Shown: positions 1,211 through 39,027 of the stretch, one piece after another | How positions within the stretch are numbered: position 1 is the first letter of the stretch | How the letters are laid out: every line of letters begins with the position of its first letter | Assembly: GCA_028285655.1 (NCBI GenBank) | Contig: JANQOT010000170.1 | Coordinates: 1 to 39,027 of the forward strand | Reading direction: 5' to 3' | From: Gammaproteobacteria bacterium | Lineage (GTDB): Bacteria; Pseudomonadota; Gammaproteobacteria; UBA4575 | DNA length: 39,027 nucleotides | Notes under the pieces: model-generated | What the model saw: the letters and a program-made list of their open reading frames with translations, nothing else | What the model was told of the DNA's origin: nothing | Database searches by the model: none | Program-made: the position numbers and the translations under genes

Positions 1211-2326
<1,116 letters not shown>

Positions 2327-2344
2327 ATGCCGGCGCGCGACTTA

Positions 2345-2680
2345 CAGGTCGGGCCCGCCGAGCGCGAAAATTGCCGGGAGTATCGCCCGACCTATTACTA
2401 CTGAATTAAAATATAGCGAAAGAATCGCTGCGCGATACTCGATTTGCGACTACTACCAGGTCGGGCCCACCGAGCGCGAAAATTGCCGGGAGTACCGCCC
2501 GACCTATTACTACTGGATTAAAATATAGCGAAAGAATCGCTGCGCGATGCTCGATTTGCGTGTACTACCAGGTCGGGCCCGCCGAGCGCGAAAATTGCCG
2601 GGAGTACCGCCCGACCTATTACTACTGGATTAGAATATAGCGAAAGAATCGCTGCGCGATACTCGATTTGCGACTACTAC
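2345..2680. repeat. Three tandem 112-bp repeat units, each containing two inverted repeats
   Basis: Units start at 2345, 2457 and 2569 (CAGGTCGGGCCC...CTACTAC) with only a few substitutions between them. Each has AGGTCGGGC...GCCCGACCT and ATCGC-TGC-GCGAT. A degenerate further start (CCAGTCGCA) follows at 2681. Confidence 0.95.
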
Positions 2681-2746
2681 CCAGTCGCATGTGTGGCATA
2701 ATACGCCGCTTTGTATTTCCGGGTTCTCTGTACAGGGGATGAAGAT

Positions 2747-3073
2747 ATGTTTTTAATAAATGACGCATACGCCGAAGGGGCTCCACAACAAGCCGGTGGC
2801 GGTATAGAAATGCTGGTCATGATTGGTGTGTTCTTCCTGATCATGTACTTCATGATTATTCGGCCGCAACAAAAACGACAAAAAGAGCACAAATCGTTAA
2901 TGGAATCCTTGAACAAGGGTGATGAAGTGGTCACCAATGGCGGCATGATGGGGCGCATTCAGGGAGTGGGTGATGACATCGTACGTATAGAGCTAACCGA
3001 AAACGTGGTTATCAAGGTGCAAAAACATGCGATCAGCAGTGTGTTGCCCAAGGGAACGCTAAACCAGGATTAA
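2747..3073 (+). CDS. yajC: Preprotein translocase subunit YajC
   Basis: Small protein with an N-terminal TM (MLVMIGVFFLIMYFMIIRPQQKRQKEHKSLMESLNKGDEVVTNGGMMGRI) upstream of secDF. The ATG at 2747 is preferred over the track start (TTG 2711) because a purine-rich RBS precedes it. Confidence 0.95.
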   Translation: MFLINDAYAEGAPQQAGGGIEMLVMIGVFFLIMYFMIIRPQQKRQKEHKSLMESLNKGDEVVTNGGMMGRIQGVGDDIVRIELTENVVIKVQKHAISSVLPKGTLNQD

Positions 3074-38655: not shown

Positions 38656-38756
38656 TCGAGCATGGGGAACAAGATGGATGAATAAATTACCCATGATTCC
38701 ACATAGGTTCGAGCATGGGGAACAAGATGGATGATTAAATTACCCATGATTCCACA
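38656..38756. repeat. Direct repeat of a 48-bp hairpin unit (period 53 bp)
   Basis: TCGAGCATGGGGAACAAGATGGATGA[A/T]TAAATTACCCATGATTCCACA at 38656-38703 and 38709-38756. Each unit has the inverted repeat CATGGG...CCCATG. Confidence 0.93.
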
Positions 38757-38843: not shown

Positions 38844-39027
38844 TCCTCACAAGTCGGTAGCCAGAGTATTTTTAAGCCTCGTAATTCAATAATGAATGGC
38901 TGCGCCATGCTTGATTTGCCCGCAATACCCGCGGGCAAGTGTCCTCACAAGTCGGTAGCCAGAGTATTTTTAACCTTGTAATTCAATAATGAATGGCTGC
39001 GCCATGCTTAATTTGCCCGCAATACCC
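38844..39027. repeat. Tandem repeat of a roughly 98-bp unit, second copy truncated by the window end
   Basis: TCCTCACAAGTCGGTAGCCAGAGTATTTTTAA... starts at 38844 and 38942. Contains ATGGC-TGC-GCCAT and TTGCCCGC-AATACCC-GCGGGCAA inverted repeats. Confidence 0.93.

Follow-up and report, generated by a model that had tools for sequence, protein, structure and literature searches.

Two tandem repeat arrays, one near each end of the 39,027-nucleotide stretch of DNA analysed here (the window), share a 27-nt core, which raises the question of what this core is part of and how it reached both places. The original prediction took the cores for members of a dispersed modular repeat family, with a constant core and variable flanks, in which one stem pair had undergone a compensatory change.

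The shared core is the inner part of a two-hairpin unit

All five predicted cores were recovered at their positions, with identities between the two array families of 22/27 for copy 1 and 23/27 for copy 2, and the swap of a C-G for a G-C stem pair between the families was likewise confirmed. Contig C251 ends in the same 97-bp unit as the right array, which the assembler has therefore probably split. The core forms the inside of a longer unit of two hairpins, which is naturally read on the minus strand and naturally adjoins the 3' end of a tRNA gene (Table 1). Separately, a 53-bp direct repeat of about two copies, TCGAGCATGGGGAACAAGATGGATGAATAAATTACCCATGATTCCACA, lies between hemP and the right-edge array (window 38656-38756).

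Table 1 Features of the two arrays and of the tgt-yajC junction in the window.
Feature	Position	Strand	Evidence
tgt (queuine tRNA-ribosyltransferase), C-terminal codons replaced at insertion	1217-2326	+	PF01702, E 8.7e-160; relatives
Left array, 3.0 copies of a 112-bp unit, each hairpin C, half hairpin B and hairpin A	2345-2681	-	Tandem Repeats Finder, 95% matches; models R1, R2, R3
Hairpin C, copy 3	2342-2401	-	R3, 49.3 bits
Third copy, 3' half of hairpin B and hairpin A, behind hairpin C; includes core 2422-2448	2419-2469	-	R1 match 2416-2460; R2, 32.2 bits
Hairpin C, copy 2	2454-2513	-	R3, 58.6 bits
Second copy, 3' half of hairpin B and hairpin A, behind hairpin C	2531-2574	-	R1 match 2528-2572; R2, 26.1 bits
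Hairpin C, copy 1	2566-2625	-	R3, 56.8 bits
CCA-proximal copy, hairpins B and A complete; TATTATGCCA precedes on its strand	2643-2693	-	R2, 64.4 bits; flank
Insertion junction TGTGGCATAATACGCCGCT; minus-strand reading supplies CCA in front of the array	2692-2710	+	Uninterrupted in nine relatives
yajC, downstream of the array, then secD and secF	2747-3073	+	PF02699, E 1.6e-30
Right array, 1.9 copies of 97-98 bp, cut by the contig end	38844-39027		Tandem Repeats Finder
Right-edge copy, hairpins B and A complete; GAGGA in place of CCA before it	38891-38941	-	R2, 68.4 bits; flank
Right-edge copy, 5' side cut by the contig end	38988-39027	-	R2, 45.7 bits; contig C251 copies

Read on the minus strand, the unit follows CCA with CAC, then hairpin B, whose 7-nt loop is conserved and mostly GGGTATT, then AAATYAAG, and finally hairpin A, which mostly has a GNA triloop. 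The consensus behind CCA is CAC TTGCGNGY GGGTATT RCNCGCAA ATYAAGTAT SGC GNA GCS AT, and the module, about 50-60 bp in size, contains no gene. The 112-bp unit carries a third covarying hairpin, C. An origin of this arrangement by insertion of hairpin C into hairpin B was rejected, because the missing 5' arm of B was not found beyond C.

The covariation, which had been proposed from a single pair, is real and far stronger than that pair suggested, as all stems covary when compared with shuffled and slid controls. In hairpin A, 99.1% of cells are paired with two-sided changes at three of the five pairs, and the covariation score is 0.478 versus 0.153 for shuffled alignments (n = 22 copies, 0/500 shuffles). 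Hairpins A and B together are 93.4% paired, with two-sided changes at 8/13 pairs and a score of 0.517 versus 0.174 shuffled and at most 0.080 slid (n = 34 copies); three rows of this alignment come from tRNA flanks, and its rows are related, so that shuffle counts are not probabilities. For hairpin C the values are 98.5%, 7/9 pairs and 0.676 versus 0.239 (n = 15 copies). Single copies fold only moderately better than their shuffles (z -1.5 to -3.8), and the predicted stem pairing is carried by the comparative evidence, not by single-copy folding.

The family was found only in related uncultured gammaproteobacteria

Among the matches listed, the core pattern at up to three mismatches hit the source genome (G000; 2.49 Mb, 275 contigs, 86% complete) 22 times, versus none for the reversed control pattern, a covariance model hit it 33 times at E ≤ 1, and the family amounts to about 30 copies. 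These genome-wide copies support a dispersed modular family with a constant core and variable flanks, which is neither limited to the loci of the window nor covarying at one stem pair only. Model R2 gave, among the matches listed, 33 matches in this genome and 1-15 in each of eight others, in three genera. With model R1, copies were found in 6 of 55 genomes (G000 and relatives), all from one uncultured gammaproteobacterial family, and none outside that family under strict filters among 369 genomes sampled from the class. Plasmid and phage records gave no match to the family. A pattern scan of named genomes yielded one true match, L023 on a G015 contig; L024-L026 lacked the rest of the unit and were treated as chance. 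The family also matches none with a name: Rfam 15 gave no match to it at the gathering score, only tRNA and tmRNA being found in the window and 17 element loci.

Many copies lie exactly behind tRNA CCA ends

For 87 matches, we determined how far upstream, on the same strand, the nearest tRNA or tmRNA gene lies. Among the matches listed, the copy starts 0 nt behind the tRNA CCA in 27 cases and at 1 nt in one, none starts at 2-14 nt, one lies at 15 nt and 21 lie at 51-214 nt. Altogether 28/87 copies abut a tRNA, 22 more are found within 260 nt downstream of a tRNA or tmRNA, and 37 have neither within 260 nt. The abutting copies all came from the genome-wide search and not from inspection of tRNA flanks, L161 excepted. 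The abutted tRNAs represent 15 types in nine genomes: Phe, Met/fMet, His, Leu (three types), Pro (two), Val (two), Cys, Tyr, Arg, Ser and Asn. G011 is a complete genome, and five of its nine copies among the matches listed abut a tRNA, for a chance per copy of about 1e-5. Hairpin C too is found directly behind CCA, at tRNA-Ala, Asn, Thr and Leu and at other sites.

The preference for CCA extends to sites away from tRNAs. CCA lies directly upstream at 8 and GGA at 4 of about 14 independent non-tRNA sites, versus a CCA background of 1.7%; the 8/14 figure is rough, since the sites were picked by eye after the data had been seen. GGA replaces CCA before the right-edge array and at L111, L219 and L224. 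Partial duplicates of tRNA or tmRNA 3' ends precede some copies, including L136 (fMet), L196 (Pro), L223 (tmRNA), L124 (Met) and L230 (Pro), and with L200 and L139 these make up a minority.

An intrinsic terminator was rejected, as hairpin B is followed by AAAT and no T run comes directly after the hairpin. Copies also sit between co-directional tRNA genes (Tyr-Gly, Cys-Leu, Arg-His), which argues against a terminator.

Two further arrangements were seen at tRNA genes. At L139:951-1003 (G007), an antisense hairpin B-A copy lies between an intact tRNA-Arg(cct) and a 31-bp duplicate of its 3' end, the layout of a tRNA-linked repeat. A second tRNA-linked repeat, GGTTCRACAAAATCG..CGATTTT plus further hairpins, follows a terminator-like hairpin at several tRNAs and terminates in a copy of its tRNA's 3' end with CCA, often with hairpin B next. 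It occurs in tRNA 3' flanks at L136, L196, L200, L230, L138, L121 and L128 (G000, G007, G011, G015) and is nearer to the E. coli tRNA-linked repeats than the hairpin B-A family is.

Orthologous sites are filled in some genomes and empty in others

Occupancy differs at orthologous tRNAs, namely fMet, Met, Cys, Tyr, Pro and Leu(caa). G002 and G011 carry a copy at tRNA-fMet that G014 lacks, with apparently the same gene downstream, and G007 carries one at tRNA-Cys, upstream of tRNA-Leu, where G011 has none. Most tRNAs of carrier genomes have no element.

The left array of the window provides the clearest comparison. In nine relatives, the end of tgt runs directly into TGTGGCATAATACG upstream of yajC, with small substitutions in G008 and G015. 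In the window, the array is located directly before TGTGGCATAATACG, that is, directly behind TATTATGCCA(CA) on the element strand, and the insertion point can be placed only to within CCACA, as these letters occur in both target and element. The final tgt codons were replaced, the gene ending in RNEG-stop in the window versus TSESSVA-stop in G003. Compared with the relatives, tgt-yajC is one clear filled site versus nine uninterrupted ones. Neither a target-site duplication nor a clean 3' end could be defined for the family. No recent insertion was seen among the genomes compared, one per species. The TGTGGCATAATACG segment, kept upstream of yajC in all relatives, resembles an extended -10 promoter, and the adjoining array might alter expression of yajC-secD-secF.

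Some copies appear to have been retained for longer. Those between tRNA-Val(gac) and a neighbouring gene that we take, from its N-terminal sequence, to be thrS keep most of their pairing in G002, G011, G014 and G008 (genera g3 and g4). They look old and vertically inherited, which would suit a functional trailer as well. Two non-tRNA sites, L195/L220 and L211/L215, also look orthologous between genomes, with hairpin B kept and its bases changed; some non-tRNA copies would therefore be old too.

A proposed insertion behind CCA by an enzyme acting in trans

What has to be explained is a family of paired hairpins that lies directly behind CCA and occupies orthologous tRNAs patchily. With a probability of roughly 55%, we favour the reading that these are non-autonomous, non-coding hairpin modules, inserted 3' of CCA by an enzyme acting in trans and tandemly amplified, with pairing maintained. 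Insertion of a module would take place in a single orientation, immediately 3' of a CCA triplet and most frequently of the one that ends a tRNA gene, leaving the tRNA intact. Tandem copying would come next, sometimes joined with the third module, hairpin C, itself directly behind CCA. As the modules contain no gene, they would depend on an enzyme made elsewhere. Such an enzyme may recognise a single strand in its folded form, in the manner of IS200/REP-type and other single-strand systems; this is suggested by the constant orientation of the copies at tRNAs, a target of only about three bases, and the covarying hairpins with conserved loops. The 3' ends of tRNA genes are classic integration sites, where, to our knowledge, known integrases read the sequence of one tRNA. 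For a family that starts precisely 0 nt behind 15 tRNA types, the implication would be that CCA itself is read.

The mobilising enzyme was not found in the carrier genomes searched. The Y1 transposase (PF01797) is absent from seven of eight genomes (G000, G007, G015, G002, G014, G003 and G011, which is complete and has nine copies), all five matches being in G008, at C1:1193788-1194111 and four more places with no link to the elements. Reverse transcriptase (PF00078) is absent from eight of ten genomes (G000, G011, G007, G002, G014, G008, G003, G017) and present only in G015 and G012, and RNA-mediated insertion by a resident reverse transcriptase was rejected on this ground. It is possible, and we suggest it tentatively, that the family represents a new class of mobile element for which CCA is the sole target requirement, which exploits the universal 3' end of tRNAs whatever their type, and which is moved by an enzyme other than a Y1 transposase or a reverse transcriptase.

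The strongest alternative, which we regard as somewhat unlikely, is a functional trailer RNA similar to tRNA-linked repeats: the hairpins would be part of the tRNA transcript, would direct 3' processing or give rise to small RNAs from the trailer, and would spread among tRNA genes by recombination between their 3' ends instead of transposition. The exact position at the processing site, the conserved loops, the retention of the tRNA-Val-thrS copies across genera and the location of several copies behind partial tRNA or tmRNA duplicates all fit this explanation. So does the excess of G-U over A-C (18 versus 8) on the tRNA strand of hairpins A and B (56 copies), where G-U makes up 3.1%, a share comparable with the 2.4 and 7.9% seen in tRNA stems from the same genomes. 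However, a trailer function is at odds with the patchy occupancy, which leaves most tRNAs of the carriers bare, and with copies such as those at tgt-yajC, which are distant from tRNAs and antisense to the operon around them. Spread by recombination meets a further difficulty, as different tRNA types have only CCA in common at the site, and recombination would therefore have nothing to work with.

It is improbable that the covariation is mutational and not selected, template switching between the arms of an imperfect palindrome making paired changes without function. The arms do change together in every stem, and G-U is almost absent from hairpin C (1/133 pairs), but conservation extends to the GGGTATT and GNA loops and to the position at CCA, hairpins A and B contain more G-U than A-C, and the position behind tRNAs would be left unexplained. 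Movement of REP-like elements by a RAYT (Y1) transposase, a link raised in the original prediction, is very improbable: dispersed short intergenic palindromes, tandem clusters, strand-specific position and GTAG in some hairpin B loops agree with it, but most of the genomes, complete G011 included, have no such enzyme, and GTAG is a minority loop variant of hairpin B, not a conserved tag.

Comparison with known systems

Literature searches found only E. coli tRNA-linked repeats and unrelated MITEs. Hairpin C resembles integron attC sites, single-strand hairpins whose arms vary and covary and whose ends are conserved. Such sites carry R boxes, GTTRRRY/RYYYAAC, at their stem ends; these boxes are absent from the 15-copy hairpin C alignment, and the elements here carry no gene cassettes. 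GTAG-tagged REP/RAYT palindromes are likewise short, dispersed, intergenic, clustered and without coding capacity. By contrast, carriers of the present family mostly have no Y1 transposase, and its copies have a fixed place behind CCA and no conserved GTAG-type tetranucleotide 5' of the palindrome, the hairpin B loops being mostly GGGTATT. Coxiella QMITE1 and QMITE2 are non-autonomous gammaproteobacterial repeats that can overlap gene 3' ends; they span 150-400 bp and have both terminal inverted repeats and direct repeats, and the text describing them does not mention tRNA (PMC5896051). The hairpin B-A unit has no terminal inverted repeat across it, and the tgt-yajC junction has no target-site duplication.

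The nearest known kind are the tRNA-linked repeats of E. coli, including the 178-bp tyrT repeats (Egan & Landy 1978; Rudd 1999; reviewed in PMC8144298). They too are repeats of about 100 bp directly behind tRNA genes, tandem at some loci and with no agreed function, and some copies of the present family also follow duplicated tRNA or tmRNA 3' ends. The E. coli repeats are located in tRNA or rRNA operons, with 18-19 bp at their end identical to the upstream tRNA 3' end (PMC8144298), an identity that most copies here do not have. Conversely, a covarying two-hairpin unit located exactly at CCA, behind 15 tRNA types and at non-tRNA CCA sites, is absent from their description. If CCA itself is read, tRNA-linked repeats, known since 1978 and yet to be assigned a general function, would gain a testable mode of spread, and the filled and empty sites would be the starting point for testing it.
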